From Umezawaea endophytica (GTDB lineage: Bacteria; Actinomycetota; Actinomycetes; Mycobacteriales; Pseudonocardiaceae): a DNA stretch of 42,004 nt. A program made the position numbers and the translations under genes. This document shows, piece after piece, positions 8,356 to 32,234 of this stretch; the stretch's first letter is position 1, and the number at the start of each line of letters is the position of its first letter. The notes under the pieces are model-generated. The model was not told where the DNA came from and made no database searches. It was given only the letters and a program-made list of their open reading frames with translations. The stretch is from assembly GCF_025061645.1 (NCBI RefSeq), contig NZ_JANYMP010000004.1:952-42955 (forward strand). Reading direction: 5' to 3'.

Positions 8356-9789
8356 GGACGGTCGGTGGGCTCGATCGGGCGGGGCAGCAGGTCTCGGCCG
8401 GTGAGGTACGCGTCGACGCCCGCGGCGGCCGAGCGGCCCTCCGCGATGGCCCACACGATCAGCGACTGGCCGCGGCCCATGTCGCCCGCGACGAACACGC
8501 CGTCGACGGTCGTGGCGAACGAGCGGTCGCGGACGACGTTGCCCCGCGGGTCCAGCTCGACGCCCAGCTCCTCGATCAGCCCGGCCTTCTCCGGTCCGAG
8601 GAAGCCCATCGCCAGCGTCACGAGCTGGGCCGGGATGACCCGTTCGGTGCCCTCGACGGGCACGAACTTCCCGGCCTCGAACGCGACCTCCACGAGCTTC
8701 AGCGACTGGACAGCGCCGTCCTCGTCACCCTGGAACTCCACTGTGGACACCGCGTAGACCCGCTCGCCGCCCTCCTGGTGGGCGGAGGACACCCGGTAGA
8801 TCATCGAGTACGTCGGCCACGGGTTGTTCGCGGCCCGCGTCTCCGGCGGCCTCGGCATGATCTCCAGTTGGGTCACGGACGCCGCGCCCTGCCGGTGGGC
8901 GGTGCCGACGCAGTCCGCGCCGGTGTCACCGCCGCCGATGACGACGACGTGCTTGCCCTCGGCGTGGATCGGCGACCGCTCCAGGTCGCCGCGCGCCACC
9001 TTGTTCGCGGGCGGCAGGTACTCCATCGCCTGGTGCACGCCCGTGAGCGAGCGGCCGGGGATCGGCAGGTCGCGCCACGCCGTGGCACCGCCCGCCAGCA
9101 CGACGGCGTCGTACGAGGCGCGCAGTTCCTCGACGGTGACGTCGACACCGACGTTGACCGACACCCGGAACTCGGTGCCCTCGGCCCGCATCTGGTCGAG
9201 GCGCCGGTCGAGCCGCCACTTCTCCATCTTGAACTCGGGGATGCCGTACCGCAGCAGCCCGCCGATCGCGTCGGCGCGCTCCAGCACCACGACGTCGTGG
9301 CCCGCGCGGGTGAGCTGCTGCGCGGCGGCCAGCCCCGCGGGCCCGGAGCCCACCACGGCGACCTTCTTGCCGGTGCGGACCTCCGGGACCTGCGGGGTGA
9401 CCCACCCCTCGTCCCACGCCCGGTCGATGATCGAGATCTCGACGCGCTTGATGGTCACCGGATCGTCGTTGATGCCGAGGACGCAGGCGGTCTCGCAGGG
9501 GGCGGGGCAGAGCGTCCCGGTGAACTCCGGGAAGTTGTTCGTGGCGTGCAGGCGTTCACTGGCGTCGCGCCAGTCCTGCCGCCACACCAGCGTGTTCCAC
9601 TCGGGGATCAGGTTGCCCAGCGGGCAGCCCTGGTGGCAGAACGGGATGCCGCAGTCCATGCAGCGCCCGGCCTGCTTCTCCAGCCGCTGCCCCTCGAACT
9701 CGTCGTAGACCTCGCGCCAGTCCTTCAGGCGCAGGAACACCGGCCGGGTGGTCGGCACCTCGCGCTCGGTGGTGAGAAAACCCCTCGGG

Positions 9790-9797
<8 letters not shown>
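8346..9797 (-). CDS. gltD: Glutamate synthase small subunit
   Basis: 483 aa, ATG start at 9797. The N-terminal 4Fe-4S region (residues ~38-60 and ~95-108) has [23 protein letters not shown] and [12 protein letters not shown]. Next come the FAD-binding [13 protein letters not shown] (~152-164) and the NADPH-binding [18 protein letters not shown]. The length is normal for GltD. It supplies electrons from NADPH to the large subunit for reductive transfer of glutamine amide to 2-oxoglutarate. It overlaps the gltB stop by 8 bp, so the two are translationally coupled. The stop codon lies inside a GATCAAGC tandem repeat. Confidence 0.96.
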
Positions 9798-14328
<4,531 letters not shown>

Positions 14329-27767: not shown

Positions 27768-28968
27768 CTTCCTGCTGCCCGACCTCGGCGAGGGGCTGAC
27801 CGAGGGCGAGATCGTCACGTGGCTGGTGTCGGTGGGGGACGAGGTGTCCGTCGACCAGCCCGTCGTGGAGGTCGAGACCGCCAAGGCCGTCGTCGAGGTG
27901 CCGTGCCCGTACGCGGGTGTCGTGACCGCCACGCACGGCCGGGCCGGTGAGTCCCTCGCCGTCGGCTCGGTGCTGCTGACCGTTGGCGCGGAAGGGTTCC
28001 AGGAGCCCGGTGTCGTCGTGCCCGAGCAGGGCAGCGGCAACGTCCTCATCGGCTACGGCACGTCCGAGGCCCCGCGCCGCAAGCGCAGGCGTGCCCGTGC
28101 CGCCGCACCAGCCGCACCCGCAGCGACCACGGCGGTCGCCACCCCGAAGCCGGGCGTGATCTCGCCGCTGGTCCGGAAGTTGGCGCGGGACAACGGGATC
28201 GACGTCGGCGCGCTCACGGGGTCCGGGCCGGGCGGCGTCGTCCGCCGCCACGACGTGGAGCGGGAACTGGCCCGCCGGGTCGTGCCGGAGAAGACGACCG
28301 GTGGCAGGCGGATCCCGTTGAAGGGCCTGCGGAAGACGGTGGCGGACAAGCTGTCCGCGTCCCGCCGCGAGATCCCCGAGGCGACGGTGTGGGTCGACGT
28401 CGACGCCACCGACTTCCTCGCCGCCCGCGCCGCCCTCAAGGACGTCGGGCTGCTCGCCCTGCTGGCCCGGTTCACGGTGCTGGGCCTGAAGAAGTTCCCC
28501 GAGCTGAACTCCCGCGTCGAGGGTGACGAGATCGTGGTGCTCGACCACGTCAACCTCGGCTTCGCCGCGCAGACCGACCGCGGACTGGTCGTCCCCGTGG
28601 TGAAGGACGCCCAGGACCTGACCGCGAGCGAGCTGTCGGCGGCGCTTGCCGACCGCACGGCCGCCGCCCGCGCGGGCAGGCTGTCGCCCGCCGACCTGAC
28701 CGGCGGCACCTTCACGGTCAACAACTACGGCGTGTTCGGCGTGGACGGCTCGGCCGCGATCATCAACCACCCCGAGGCCGCGATCCTCGGCATGGGCCGG
28801 ATCATCGACCGGCCCTGGGTCGTCGACGGGCAGTTGGCGGTGCGCAAGGTGTGCGAGCTGACGCTGGCCTTCGACCACCGGGTGTGCGACGGCGGTGTGG
28901 CGGGCGGGTTCCTGCGGTACGTCGCGGACTGCGTCGAGTCGCCGGTGTCCGCGCTGAGCGACCTCTAG
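27760..28968 (+). CDS. bkdC: Dihydrolipoamide acyltransferase (E2) of the 2-oxoacid dehydrogenase complex
   Basis: 402 aa, GTG start overlapping the E1 beta stop by 8 bp. Domains: a single lipoyl domain with Lys42 (VEVETAKAVVEVP), then a basic, Ala/Pro linker. The peripheral subunit-binding domain follows (ISPLVRKLARDNGIDVGALTGSGPGGVVRRHDVE, ~135-165). The catalytic acyltransferase core comes last, with RIPLKGLRKTVADKL and active-site His373/Asp377 in FDHRVCDGG. It transfers the acyl group from lipoamide to CoA. No lipoamide dehydrogenase gene is present, so E3 is supplied from elsewhere. The stop overlaps the converging DUF1772 gene by 4 bp. Confidence 0.92.
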   Translation: MPDFLLPDLGEGLTEGEIVTWLVSVGDEVSVDQPVVEVETAKAVVEVPCPYAGVVTATHGRAGESLAVGSVLLTVGAEGFQEPGVVVPEQGSGNVLIGYGTSEAPRRKRRRARAAAPAAPAATTAVATPKPGVISPLVRKLARDNGIDVGALTGSGPGGVVRRHDVERELARRVVPEKTTGGRRIPLKGLRKTVADKLSASRREIPEATVWVDVDATDFLAARAALKDVGLLALLARFTVLGLKKFPELNSRVEGDEIVVLDHVNLGFAAQTDRGLVVPVVKDAQDLTASELSAALADRTAAARAGRLSPADLTGGTFTVNNYGVFGVDGSAAIINHPEAAILGMGRIIDRPWVVDGQLAVRKVCELTLAFDHRVCDGGVAGGFLRYVADCVESPVSALSDL

Positions 28969-29438
28969 GCGCGCAACGCCAGCACCAGGCAGAAGAACCC
29001 GGCGGTCGACGCGACCGCGCGGGTGGTGTTCCACCGCACCCAGGTGGCCTCGAAGGCTTCGCGCACCGAGGCCAGGTCGGGGGCGGTGGCGGGGTCGCCG
29101 ACGGCGTCGAGCGCGTTGTTCAGCGGGACGTTGACCGCGCCGGTGATCACGATCGTCGCCACGTAGAGCACCGCGCCCGCGACGACCCAGCCGAACCCGG
29201 CGCGGCCGAGGTGCAGCACCGCGGCCAGCACGCCGAGCACCGCGGCGCCGAGGAACGCGAGGAGGAACCAGCCGTTGACGATGGCGACGTTGATCCGCTG
29301 CATGGTGCTGACGAACGCCTGGTCGTCGGCGCCCCTGAGCGAGGGCATCACCGAGCAGGCGTAGGCGAAGTAGAGACCCGCGACGAGGCCGGTGGCCAGC
29401 GTGGCCGCGATGAGTGCGATGGCGCGCAACGTGTCCAT
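28965..29438 (-). CDS. DUF1772 (anthrone oxygenase-like) membrane protein
   Basis: 157 aa, ATG start at 29438. Four predicted transmembrane helices (around 5-27, 52-75, 80-100 and 135-155). It has the family pattern GLYFAYACSVMPSLRGADDQAFVSTMQRINVAIVNGWF and a conserved polar segment NVPLNNAL before the last helix. The family includes fungal anthrone oxygenases, but most bacterial members have no proven activity. It is divergent from an AraC regulator with 82 bp between starts, so it is a candidate target of that regulator. Confidence 0.85.
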   Translation of the reverse strand: MDTLRAIALIAATLATGLVAGLYFAYACSVMPSLRGADDQAFVSTMQRINVAIVNGWFLLAFLGAAVLGVLAAVLHLGRAGFGWVVAGAVLYVATIVITGAVNVPLNNALDAVGDPATAPDLASVREAFEATWVRWNTTRAVASTAGFFCLVLALRA

Positions 29439-29508
29439 GCCGTGCAGTCAAGTGGACCCGGTGCCGCCCGGACCATCGTTCAGGCGCTCCCGCACGTGCG
29501 CCTCCGTC

Positions 29509-29514
29509 TAGGCT
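29509..29514 (+). promoter_or_regulatory. Leaderless -10 element of the AraC gene
   Basis: TAGGCT ends 6 bases before the GTG at 29521, with no SD. Confidence 0.5.
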
Positions 29515-29520
29515 TGAGCC

Positions 29521-30444
29521 GTGGACGCACTGGTGGGGTTGCTGGACGGGCCGAGGGCTCGCAACGCGTTCCTGCTCCGGACCGTGCTGGACCCGCCGTG
29601 GTCCATCCGCATCCAGGACGAGGCGCCGCTGACCGTCGTCTCGCTGGTGCGCGGGCACGCGTGGATCGTGCACGACGACGATCCGCCGCTGCTGCTGACC
29701 GCCGGTGATGTCGCCGTGATCCTCGGTCCGGAGCCGTACACCGTCGCGGACCACCCGGACACCGCGCCGCAGGCGGTCATCCACCCCGGCCAGCGCTGCG
29801 AGACGCCCGACGGCCGCAGCCTGGCCGCGAGCATGGGGCTCGGCGTCCGCACGTGGGGCACGAACCTCGACGGCCGCATGATGATGCTGACCGGCGCGTA
29901 CCCGATGCGCGGCGAGATCAGCCGACGGCTGCTCGACGCGCTGCCGAAGCTGCTGGTGCTGCGCGAGGACGAGTGGGACTGCCCGGTCGTCCCGCTGCTG
30001 ACGGCCGAGATCGTCAAGGACGAGCCAGGCCAGGAGGTCGTCCTCGACCGGCTGCTGGACCTGCTGCTGATCGCGGTGCTGCGCGCGTGGTTCGCCCGTG
30101 CCGACGCGCCCGCGTGGTACAGCGCGTTCGCCGATCCCGTGGTGGGGCAGGCGGTCCGGCTGTTGCAGCAGAACCCGGCGCACCCGTGGACGGTGGCGTC
30201 GCTGGCCGCCAAGATCGGCGTCTCGCGGGCGGCGCTGGCCCGCCGGTTCACCGACCTCGTCGGCGAGCCGCCGATGGCGTTCCTGACCGGCTGGCGGCTC
30301 GCGCTGGCGGCGGACCTGCTGCGCGAGACGGACGCCACGGTCGGCGCGGTCGCCAGGCAGGTCGGCTACGGCAGTTCGTTCGCGTTGAGCACGGCGTTCA
30401 AGCGCGAACGGGGTGTCAGCCCGCAGGAGTTCCGGGCGACCTGA
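29521..30444 (+). CDS. AraC family transcriptional regulator (cupin_6 type)
   Basis: 307 aa, GTG start. The N-terminal cupin domain (~1-190) has VVSLVRGHAWIVHDDDPPLLLTAGDVAVILGPEPYTVAD. The C-terminal double helix-turn-helix (~205-307) has HPWTVASLAAKIGVSRAALARRFTDLVGEPPMAFLTGWRLALAADLLRETDATVGAVARQVGYGSSFALSTAFKRERGVSPQEFR. Such proteins often control the divergent gene, here DUF1772. It also sits immediately upstream of the RiPP locus at 30686; a role there is possible but unproven. Confidence 0.92.
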   Translation: MDALVGLLDGPRARNAFLLRTVLDPPWSIRIQDEAPLTVVSLVRGHAWIVHDDDPPLLLTAGDVAVILGPEPYTVADHPDTAPQAVIHPGQRCETPDGRSLAASMGLGVRTWGTNLDGRMMMLTGAYPMRGEISRRLLDALPKLLVLREDEWDCPVVPLLTAEIVKDEPGQEVVLDRLLDLLLIAVLRAWFARADAPAWYSAFADPVVGQAVRLLQQNPAHPWTVASLAAKIGVSRAALARRFTDLVGEPPMAFLTGWRLALAADLLRETDATVGAVARQVGYGSSFALSTAFKRERGVSPQEFRAT

Positions 30445-30685
30445 CCCTCGGCGGTCATCGTGGGCAATTCGGCCGATCGAGTGAAGTCGATTTGTCCGTC
30501 TTGGTTCGCCTGCTGCTTTTTATATCACCGGCTATGGCTGCTACCTGCGGTGATGTGCCCGCTCGGTCCTTTCGAGATGGCCGGGATCGGTCCTCTCCTG
30601 CTGTTATAAAAGTTTCGGTCGACCGAGCGAAAGCGGAATTCCGGATTCCGCGGCCAACCGAACGACTGATCTAGGAGGTTCCCTC
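30445..30685 (+). promoter_or_regulatory. AT-rich leader of the RiPP locus
   Basis: This 241-bp stretch has no convincing gene and is much richer in A+T than its flanks. TATAAA at 30605-30610 is a possible -10. It also has a 10-bp palindrome CGGTCGACCG (30616-30625) and a hairpin GCGGAAT-TCCGG-ATTCCGC (30633-30651) in the presumptive 5' leader. No clear -35 is seen. The SD AGGAGG of the precursor gene is at 30673-30678. Confidence 0.45.
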
Positions 30686-30763
30686 GTGACGCTGGTGCGT
30701 TTCGTGAAGAGGATCATGCCGAAGCGGAGCCTGAAGGCTTACGCCTGGTACGGCTGGATCTGA
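30686..30763 (+). CDS. Atropopeptide-type (tryptorubin-like) RiPP precursor peptide
   Basis: 25 aa, GTG start, perfect SD AGGAGG (30673-30678) with a 7-base spacer, TGA stop. The leader is short and basic (Arg/Lys at 5, 8, 9, 13, 14, 17). The C-terminus is AYAWYGWI, so the probable core is the hexapeptide AWYGWI (residues 20-25) with two Trp and one Tyr. As I recall it, the tryptorubin A core is AWYIWY, and atropopeptide loci consist of just such a tiny precursor gene followed by one cytochrome P450 that forms C-C and C-N bonds between aromatic side chains. A P450 gene follows here. Relative to tryptorubin, Ile4 is Gly and the final Tyr is Ile. Protease and export genes are not adjacent. Confidence 0.82.
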   Translation: MTLVRFVKRIMPKRSLKAYAWYGWI

Positions 30764-30770
30764 TCGACGA

Positions 30771-30808
30771 GGCCGTGCCCGGCGGGGCGCCGCTCGCCGG
30801 GCACGGCC
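30771..30808 (+). terminator. Hairpin (probable partial terminator/attenuator) between precursor and P450
   Basis: A perfect 14-bp stem GGCCGTGCCCGGCG (30771-30784) pairs with 30795-30808 around a 10-base loop. It starts 7 bases after the precursor stop. There is no U-run. It could lower P450 expression relative to the precursor or protect the precursor message 3' end. Confidence 0.6.
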
Positions 30809-30828
30809 CCCACCCCCTGGAGCCCGCC

Positions 30829-31854
30829 GTGCCCACCACCCGCGTCACCGCGTTCGCGCCCCGCATCGACGACCTCCTCCAGCGGTACCGGGGCCGCTCC
30901 GTCTTCCGCCTGGAACGGGACACGATCGGTGTCGCGGGCGCGGACGTGATGGAGGAGCTGCTCCGCAGCCGCCCGGCGGGGCCCGAGGAGCGGCCGACGT
31001 TCAAACCGGTGCGGGGACGCGTCGTCAGCCGCGCGGACAGCACCGCGTCCATGCGGGCCGTGTCCGCCGACGTCCGGGTGGCGCTGAAGAAGCCGCTCGG
31101 CCCGGTGGACCTGACGGGGACGTGGCCGAACGTCGCCCACGTCCACCTGCGCGACCTGGTGTTCGGGCGCGAGGACGCGCGCTTCCGCGTGCTGGTCGAC
31201 CGCAGGCTCGAACTGACGCCCAAGCTGACGTGGTCGGCGGTGGCGGCGGGCGCGGCGCTGTTCGGCGGGGCGGGGGAGGGGGTGCCGCTGTCGAACCTGG
31301 CCTCGCTCGTGCGGGAGGCCGAGTCGTACGCGGACCGGCGCTACGCCCTGTACCTGTACCGGCGGGTCGCGGCCCCGGTGTGCTTCACCGTGGCCGCCCT
31401 CGTCACGAACGCGCTGTGGCTCGGGGCCCCGTTCGCCGAGGGCGTGCCCAACCGGCACGTCCTGCACGAGGCGCTGCGCCTGCTGCCACCGTCGTGGAAC
31501 ATCCTGCGGCGGGCGTCACCGGGGTTCCCCGCCGTCGACCGCCGCATCGGCGCCGCCGACGACGTCCTGCTGCTGCCGCTGCTCAGCCACCGCGACCCCG
31601 CGCTGTGGGACGACCCCGACGACTTCCGGCCTGAGCGGTGGGACGCGCTCGACCCCGACACCCACCTCGGCTACCTGCCCTTCGGGCACTCCGGCGAGCG
31701 CTGCTGGGGACGGCACCTGGTCCTGCCGCTGGCCGAGCGGCTGCTCGACGTCGTCCGGCGGGACGGGCTCGTCGTGAGTCCGGAACAGCGGGTCGGGAGG
31801 GTGGAACTCGACGGCCTGCTGGAGGTCTCGCGCGTGCGGGTCGTCCGCGGCTAG
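30829..31854 (+). CDS. Cytochrome P450, predicted RiPP crosslinking enzyme
   Basis: 341 aa from GTG 30829 (SD TGGAG, 6 bases upstream). GTG 30775 in the same frame lies inside the hairpin and lacks an SD. Heme-binding loop FGHSGERCWG with axial Cys292, and ExxR motif HEALR with Glu214, followed by PPSWNILRRASPG and WDDPDDFRPERW. It is ~60 residues shorter than usual bacterial P450s. The I-helix position reads AAPVCFTVAALVTN, without the usual acid-Thr pair, which suggests chemistry by hydrogen abstraction or radical coupling rather than standard hydroxylation. Placed 65 bases after the precursor gene, it is the likely sole tailoring enzyme for the Trp/Tyr crosslinks. Confidence 0.85.
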   Translation: MPTTRVTAFAPRIDDLLQRYRGRSVFRLERDTIGVAGADVMEELLRSRPAGPEERPTFKPVRGRVVSRADSTASMRAVSADVRVALKKPLGPVDLTGTWPNVAHVHLRDLVFGREDARFRVLVDRRLELTPKLTWSAVAAGAALFGGAGEGVPLSNLASLVREAESYADRRYALYLYRRVAAPVCFTVAALVTNALWLGAPFAEGVPNRHVLHEALRLLPPSWNILRRASPGFPAVDRRIGAADDVLLLPLLSHRDPALWDDPDDFRPERWDALDPDTHLGYLPFGHSGERCWGRHLVLPLAERLLDVVRRDGLVVSPEQRVGRVELDGLLEVSRVRVVRG

Positions 31855-32234
31855 GTGCGCCAGGTCGCGTTGTAGCGGGCCTGCTGGTCGTCGTCCGTGC
31901 GCCGCGCGCGGGTCTCGCCCGCCGCGCCGTGCGGGTAGCCGTACTTGGTGATCCGGTTCTCGACGCTCTCGGCGGCGTAGGACAGCGAGAAGTAGACGCC
32001 GACGATGAGGCCGAGCGCGCCGCACGCCACCGCCAGGCCGATGGGGGAACCCAGCAGCACCACCAGGAGCACGCCGATCACCAGGCTCAGCGGCAGGACC
32101 TGGAGCAGCGAGCGGGCGGTGAAGTGCAGCAGCCAGTTCGGCCGGGTGACGTTGTGGAACACCCACTCGCGGTGGCGCTGCGGCAGGCGGCCACCCAGGT
32201 AGTACCAGAGGCGGAGAACGAGGTTCGGCTTCAC
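31851..32234 (-). CDS. DUF5313 family membrane protein
   Basis: 127 aa from GTG 32234 (SD AGGAG), overlapping the MarR stop (GTGA). Pattern KPNLVLRLWYYLGGRLPQRHREWVFHNVTRPNWLLHFTARSLLQ is typical of DUF5313. Two adjacent transmembrane helices follow (~52-72 and ~76-98). The C-terminus is charged (KYGYPHG, RARRTDDDQQARYNATWRT). The function of the family is unknown. Coupled to the MarR regulator, it converges on the P450 gene with a 4-bp stop overlap. Confidence 0.78.
   Translation of the reverse strand: MKPNLVLRLWYYLGGRLPQRHREWVFHNVTRPNWLLHFTARSLLQVLPLSLVIGVLLVVLLGSPIGLAVACGALGLIVGVYFSLSYAAESVENRITKYGYPHGAAGETRARRTDDDQQARYNATWRT

Follow-up and report, generated by a model that had tools for sequence, protein, structure and literature searches.

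Does the small open reading frame that directly precedes a cytochrome P450 gene in this stretch of Umezawaea endophytica DNA (the whole 42,004 nucleotides that were analysed are called the window here) encode the precursor of an atropopeptide, and if it does, what would the P450 make of that precursor and how would the output of the two genes be balanced? The initial annotation had read the locus at 30686-31854 as a precursor gene followed by a single P450 gene. The small gene with a perfect Shine-Dalgarno sequence and an AWYGWI tail that it described is indeed present, and the gene order and the 3′ end of the locus stand as given; the beginning of the P450 gene likely lies at GTG 30829. The parts of the operon are listed here.

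30673-30678, plus strand: Shine-Dalgarno sequence AGGAGG, 7 nt ahead of the precursor GTG, from reading of the sequence.
30686-30763, plus strand: predicted atropopeptide precursor gene, product of 25 aa, from the open reading frame and its match to NCBIfam NF038372.
30725-30736, plus strand: putative leader recognition motif RSLK, a variant of KSLK, residues 14-17 of the precursor, from the translation and the list of variants in PMC11450843.
30743-30760, plus strand: predicted core AWYGWI, residues 20-25 of the precursor, with W2, Y3 and W5 as the expected crosslinking residues, from the translation and the bonds of varsorubin B1 (PMC11450843).
30819-30822, plus strand: GGAG, likely the Shine-Dalgarno sequence of the P450 gene, 6 nt ahead of GTG 30829, from the sequence and an alignment of relatives.
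30829-31854, plus strand: predicted atropopeptide-modifying cytochrome P450, 341 aa, from its Pfam PF00067 match, the clade that it shares with the varsorubin P450 and comparison of a structural model with P450 structures.

The precursor frame runs from GTG 30686 to a stop codon at 30761-30763, and its 25-residue product is MTLVRFVKRIMPKRSLKAYAWYGWI. We place the P450 start at GTG 30829, which likely gives the true 341-aa protein, rather than at 30775, because the matches in all 100 distinct P450 rows of the sample described below (window included) begin at residues 1-9 of the 341-aa reading. At the site that corresponds to the window GGAG, most of 23 aligned relatives have GAGGAG or AAGGAG.

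Comparison of the 25-residue peptide with RiPP precursor sets had been proposed as a check on the locus, and the peptide passed it: in a profile search it scored 41.5 bits against NCBIfam NF038372 (tryptorubin_fam), the curated model for tryptorubin-family precursors, whose cut-off is 33. It is the sole match to this model in its own genome at E values up to 10. No match over the cut-off was present in any of 14 control genomes (seven of them have sub-threshold matches), and 30 of 390 genomes of the family, own genome counted, have one. The family would be Pseudonocardiaceae, as its genome G155 and the genome with the Amycolatopsis eburnea locus L080 have their match at one and the same position, C55:214278-214349. 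It had also been argued that the A-W-Y-x-W match in the tail was unlikely to arise by chance. The ending alone does not bear this out, as W..[WY].? endings are found in seven of the window's 771 stop-to-stop frames with 15 codons or more, the precursor included, and a W..[WY] ending taken by itself is weak evidence against chance. The argument holds on other grounds, namely the NF038372 score, the leader motif and conservation, and by our reading of the sequences it is the last two that carry the more-than-chance case for the precursor.

The P450 protein matches Pfam PF00067 with 47 bits (cut-off 22.8) and has the residues E214 and R217 of the ExxR motif and F285, G286 and C292 of the haem-binding region, all five of which are kept in 54 of 54 aligned proteins. 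Its AlphaFold model is confident, with a pLDDT of 88.8, and contains a long helix (residues 167-199) that includes residues 184-198 (window 31378-31422). The I helix of P450s usually carries an acid-threonine pair. When the four commonest letters in each column of residues 184-198 are listed (two cells lie outside those shown), the letters listed include one Asp, at one position in one of the 54 rows, and no Glu; with this stretch nearly free of Asp and Glu, the usual pair therefore seems to be absent from the I-helix stretch throughout the family. Among the 50 best Foldseek matches listed for the model against the PDB are generic P450s with TM scores (by query) of 0.45-0.63 and rmsd values of 6.4-12.6 Å, and P450Blt (8u2m) stands at rank 39 among these matches; so loose a superposition of the model supports a P450 fold and nothing finer. 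Against NCBIfam NF050147 (RiPP P450 ApyO, aminopyruvatide) the protein scored 68 bits, below the cut-off of 525, and the varsorubin P450 likewise falls far under that cut-off with 57.9 bits.

A scan of a genome collection with the P450 returned 78 loci, comprising 76 close (L069-L144) and two remote (L145 and L146) ones. P450 identity in the close loci is 56-76% over the best segment, and nearly all of these matches cover almost the whole length (L123 is cut by a contig end). The remote P450s, at 37% and 26% identity, have no precursor beside them and were left out of further comparison. By a strict motif scan a precursor lies upstream of the P450 in 67 of the 78 loci, and a looser scan of nine of the remaining 11 loci found it in eight of the nine; in all, a precursor precedes the P450 in 75 of the 76 close loci. 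The exception is L120 (around 6001, Streptomyces sp. RPT161), a close P450 relative beside which these patterns detect no KSLK-type precursor; its precursor may be divergent or displaced.

For the comparison of precursor and P450 as pairs, 110 loci were scanned, two of which gave no pair: L120 for want of a KSLK-type precursor by those patterns, and L127, which has a precursor but showed no open P450 frame in the scan. The first haem pattern did not recognise L078 and L081, and these two loci were entered manually. Because some genomes are represented twice among the loci, the 109 rows obtained (108 loci and the window) hold 100 distinct P450s. This sample was drawn by likeness to the window P450 and relatedness to its own genome, so that the counts given from it are not population frequencies. 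Its 100 loci are phylogenetically non-independent.

We placed the 100 distinct atropopeptide P450s in a tree with eight ordinary P450s of the own genome (eight of 70 match rows), built by a quick method with no bootstrap and with outgroup branches that are very long according to a warning of the tool. In it the window P450 is set apart from the eight ordinary P450s and belongs to a 38-row clade (SH-aLRT 99) in which 36 rows have xWYGW[ILV] cores and the other two have SWYQWL and AWYNWI. Two further Gly4 cores, AWYGWY and AWYGWD, fall outside this clade. The latter, found at L011 and L042 (both G013), has an acidic last residue, and its P450 is diverged (56% identity, long branch).

These comparisons bear directly on whether the P450 could be an ordinary hydroxylase and the small open reading frame a chance one. 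The initial annotation had said how this would show itself, by a P450 that clusters with ordinary hydroxylases and a small frame that is not conserved beside its relatives, and neither outcome was observed. Chance W..[WY].? endings do occur in the window at the frequency given above, and the P450 has the ExxR motif and haem cysteine usual in its superfamily, as an ordinary hydroxylase would. However, the precursor lies over the NF038372 cut-off, the P450 is separate from the eight ordinary P450s of its own genome, and conservation of the frame beside 75 of 76 close relatives contradicts a chance origin; we regard this explanation as extremely improbable.

The surroundings of the operon were compared by blastn with two congeners, G001 and G002, with these results.

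30437-31851, no strand assigned, approximate: stretch found here that both congeners lack, from blastn.
30445-30685, plus strand: region upstream of the operon, the presumed promoter region, with a G+C content of 0.577 against 0.711 for the window, from base composition.

The matching pieces end at window 30435 or 30437 and resume at 31858 or 31845, whereas in G001 the pieces are separated by 12 bases and in G002 they overlap by 6, so that about 1.4 kb is extra in the window. In both congeners an AraC-type gene abuts a DUF5313 gene, with a MarR-type gene also downstream. By this comparison the operon would have been either gained here or lost in both congeners, and three genomes cannot decide between the two. 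A divergent pair of genes occupies 28965-30444, an anthrone-oxygenase-type gene on the minus strand and an AraC-type regulator with a cupin domain on the plus strand. We considered the AraC-type gene (29521-30444) as a regulator of the cluster and rejected it: at 84-85% identity it is conserved in both congeners, which lack the operon, so it belongs to the flank and is probably unrelated to the P450 operon. Within the stretch of about 1.4 kb the lists of open reading frames contain, overlapping shadow frames aside, only the precursor and the P450 as recognised genes. Extra tailoring genes were sought among frames of at least 90 aa in 20 neighbourhoods (20 of the 38 rows of the clade), and the P450 and shadow frames were all that these have in common; since no other such frame is shared, the host presumably supplies the leader protease.

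Could the operon be a degenerate or silent remnant? Its absence from both congeners searched would fit this, as would the lack of any match to a sigma-70-type promoter consensus in 30400-32000, and at 341 aa the P450 is short for a superfamily in which about 400 aa is typical. Against a remnant, the matches of its relatives span residues 1-9 to 331-341 of the 341 in 99 of 100 rows (L123 is the one cut by a contig end); in addition, the haem and ExxR residues are intact, both ribosome sites are present, and the P450 gene and the gene next to it have similar GC3 values (0.965 and 0.958, respectively). We consider a remnant very unlikely and take the two-gene locus to be genuine and apparently complete.

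Atropopeptides are defined in PMC11450843 by a P450 of their own class, a KSLK-type leader motif and Trp at core position 2, with RSLK, ESLK, KSRK, KPLK and PSLK as allowed variants of the leader motif. The window precursor has RSLK at residues 14-17 and Trp at position 2 of AWYGWI, and beside it lies a P450 with 56-76% identity to those of the 76 close loci, the varsorubin P450 among them, in the 38-row clade described above. KSLK is by far the commonest leader motif in the 100 pairs (91, against three with RSLK). The same article recognises the bitryptides as an atropopeptide subfamily (PMC11450843), and the window core, with Trp at positions 2 and 5, agrees with their xWxxWx pattern and KSLK-type leader; we see no difference between the two. 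The original proposal of an atropopeptide-like precursor with one P450 finds support in the sequence families, the phylogeny and the pairing of the genes, and the window operon is very probably an atropopeptide operon, an assessment that takes in neither the bond pattern of the product nor the role of the hairpin described below.

Several known systems help to place this operon. Tryptorubin A, the type member of the atropopeptides, has the core AWYIWY; the window locus resembles it in the precursor family model, the single P450 and the A-W-Y-x-W core, and differs at core positions 4 and 6, which are Ile and Tyr there and Gly and Ile here. WYIWY is the core given for the lau cluster, which yields tryptorubin B (PMC11450843, PMC12352619). 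The closest comparison is with varsorubin (sva) from Streptomyces varsoviensis. Row L081, with the SWYQWL core, is the varsorubin locus: its P450 match at 9555-10571 of contig NZ_JOBF01000044.1 lies inside the sva interval, 9,365-10,577 (PMC11450843). The two loci share the two-gene layout, the P450 clade (63% identity) and a core with W2, Y3 and W5, and they are alike in the leader motif (KSLK in varsorubin, RSLK here), an aliphatic residue 6 and a 14-bp intercistronic hairpin; the cores themselves differ (SWYQWL versus AWYGWI). Amyxirubin and clavorubin likewise come from two-gene clusters, in Amycolatopsis and Streptomyces (PMC11450843). Loci L147 (on a Streptomyces clavuligerus plasmid) and L067 (in a genome of the window's family) both have the core AWYIWW, and their P450s are 59.6% identical; an identity of 59% is given for the jum and amyxirubin P450s in PMC11450843. 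From this we infer that AWYIWW is the core of amyxirubin and clavorubin, with L067 as a candidate amyxirubin locus; the product of AWYGWI is thus probably a compound other than amyxirubin.

Gly4 and terminal Ile6 had been thought to be new combinations, and this is not the case. AWYGWI is found in 34 of the 100 distinct pairs (window included), which makes it the commonest core in this sample, biased as it is toward the window P450, with AWYLWY (21) and AWYIWY (13) next. At core position 4, 38 pairs have Gly. Trp occupies position 5 in all 100, where the scan pattern admitted Trp or Tyr alone, and position 6 holds Tyr (56 pairs) more often than Ile (37). Tyr3 is kept in 98, the exceptions being AWALWY and TWFIWYS. 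The first of these unusual cores belongs to L125 (Kutzneria sp. 744), which also has the motif TSLK; Tyr3 is replaced by Ala in it, and the Trp-Tyr bond therefore cannot form there. Named bearers of AWYGWI include species of Streptomyces, Kitasatospora, Nocardia and Amycolatopsis. The strings AWYGWI, AWYGW and WYGWI were not found in a search of literature text, a search that figures, supplements and several subscription papers lie outside. We regard the locus as a well-founded addition to an established family and not as the source of a molecule of a new kind.

By analogy with the characterised relatives, the precursor would be translated from its strong ribosome site, and its basic leader with RSLK would bind the P450 encoded downstream, which would then crosslink the tail. 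A host protease encoded outside the cluster would free the tail as the hexapeptide AWYGWI or, with Ala removed as well, as WYGWI, a pentapeptide. Varsorubin B1 (WYQWL, with no final Tyr) has Trp-Trp, Trp-Tyr and Trp-backbone bonds and a loss of 4 H (PMC11450843). All three bonding partners are present in AWYGWI, which makes a tryptorubin-type bicycle the likeliest product, and we think it probable that the P450 installs Trp2-Trp5, Trp2-Tyr3 and Trp5-backbone bonds and that, following varsorubin B1, 4 H are lost. Loss of the last Tyr had been expected to remove a crosslinking side chain and so to give a smaller or differently bridged cyclophane. Neither expectation follows from the sequence, because every core residue but the sixth belongs to the bicyclic ring system (PMC11450843) and Ile6 removes no standard crosslink; indeed, varsorubin B1 keeps its three bonds without a final Tyr. 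Laurentirubin, which is made with a second P450, is the only case of a bridged sixth residue (PMC11450843).

A true atropopeptide operon might also give a simpler product, a monocyclic W-x-x-W peptide with one C-N or C-C bond and a loss of 2 H, differing from the bicycle in bond number only. There are precedents for this, as scabrirubin (WFIW) and varsorubin B2a each have a single bond (PMC11450843) and of 15 precursors given to the ScaB P450, 13 became monocycles (PMC12352619). The clade of the window P450 is, however, that of the varsorubin P450, the maker of a three-bond product, and the near-constant Tyr3 in the 100 cores also speaks against a monocycle, which we judge to be unlikely here. 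The sequence does not reveal how many bonds form, because the varsorubin P450 itself yields one product with three bonds and another with one, and scabrirubin has one bond (PMC11450843). For the favoured bicycle, AWYGWI minus 4 H, the computed m/z is 791.3511, and for WYGWI minus 4 H it is 720.3140; AWYGWI minus 2 H, the mass of a monocycle, would give 793.3668, and WYGWI minus 2 H would give 722.3297. The computed values for WYQWL minus 4 H and minus 2 H are identical to those for AWYGWI minus 4 H and minus 2 H. AWYGWI minus 4 H is thus isomeric with varsorubin B1, and mass alone cannot separate them.

Between the two genes lies one further element.

30771-30808, plus strand: hairpin between precursor and P450, with a perfect 14-bp stem, a 10-nt loop and no T-run after it, from a stem scan and alignment.

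Perfect stems of at least 10 bp are present in 46 of the 100 intercistronic regions and missing from the other 54 loci; the corresponding figures are 63 of 3000 for random windows of the same length from the same loci, nine of 98 just after the P450, two of 100 before the precursor and five of 1000 for shuffles (perfect stems only were counted throughout, controls included). The xWYGW[ILV] group is richer in such stems (26 of 36) than the remaining loci (20 of 64). In an alignment of 23 close loci, in which rows L051 and L052 are misaligned, 94.2% of the stem cells pair, and this falls to 18.5-61.6% when the partners are slid by 1-3 columns. Cells changed on both sides number 13, against a shuffled mean of 3.9; in a control with a +1-column slide, five pairs are changed on both sides where the structure has four, though far fewer cells pair. 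Taken alone, the fold of the window region is modest (z-score −1.90, with six of 200 shuffles as good). The hairpin was considered as a terminator and rejected, as no T-run follows it and a scan of 30400-32000 that allows loops of 3-8 nt only found no terminator consensus. Nor does any known RNA family fit, there being no Rfam match at E values up to 1 in the same interval.

Other RiPP operons are known in which a stem between the precursor and enzyme genes holds down expression of the downstream gene. The hairpin here would probably keep expression of the P450 below that of the precursor. In the varsorubin operon, which also has its 14-bp stem between the genes, addition of a ribosome site before the P450 raised the yield about 100-fold (PMC11450843). 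By analogy, this gain fits a throttled P450 without showing that the hairpin is the cause, and a weak ribosome site might explain it with no contribution from the stem. On a term search, the main texts of PMC11450843 and PMC12352619 make no mention of an intercistronic hairpin, and literature searches on stem-loops in RiPP operons returned nothing about atropopeptides among the papers listed.

We tentatively suggest that the xWYGW[ILV] cores mark a large sub-clade, spread over Pseudonocardiaceae, Streptomycetaceae and Nocardia, with a product undescribed in the texts examined, and that many atropopeptide operons, those of this group above all, share a hairpin that is conserved in structure and variable in sequence and that would throttle the P450 relative to the precursor. 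With a core as common as AWYGWI, a single product would represent many strains, and the isomerism with varsorubin means that such products should not be identified from their mass only. If the hairpin does set the precursor-to-P450 ratio, it would offer a simple handle on yield.
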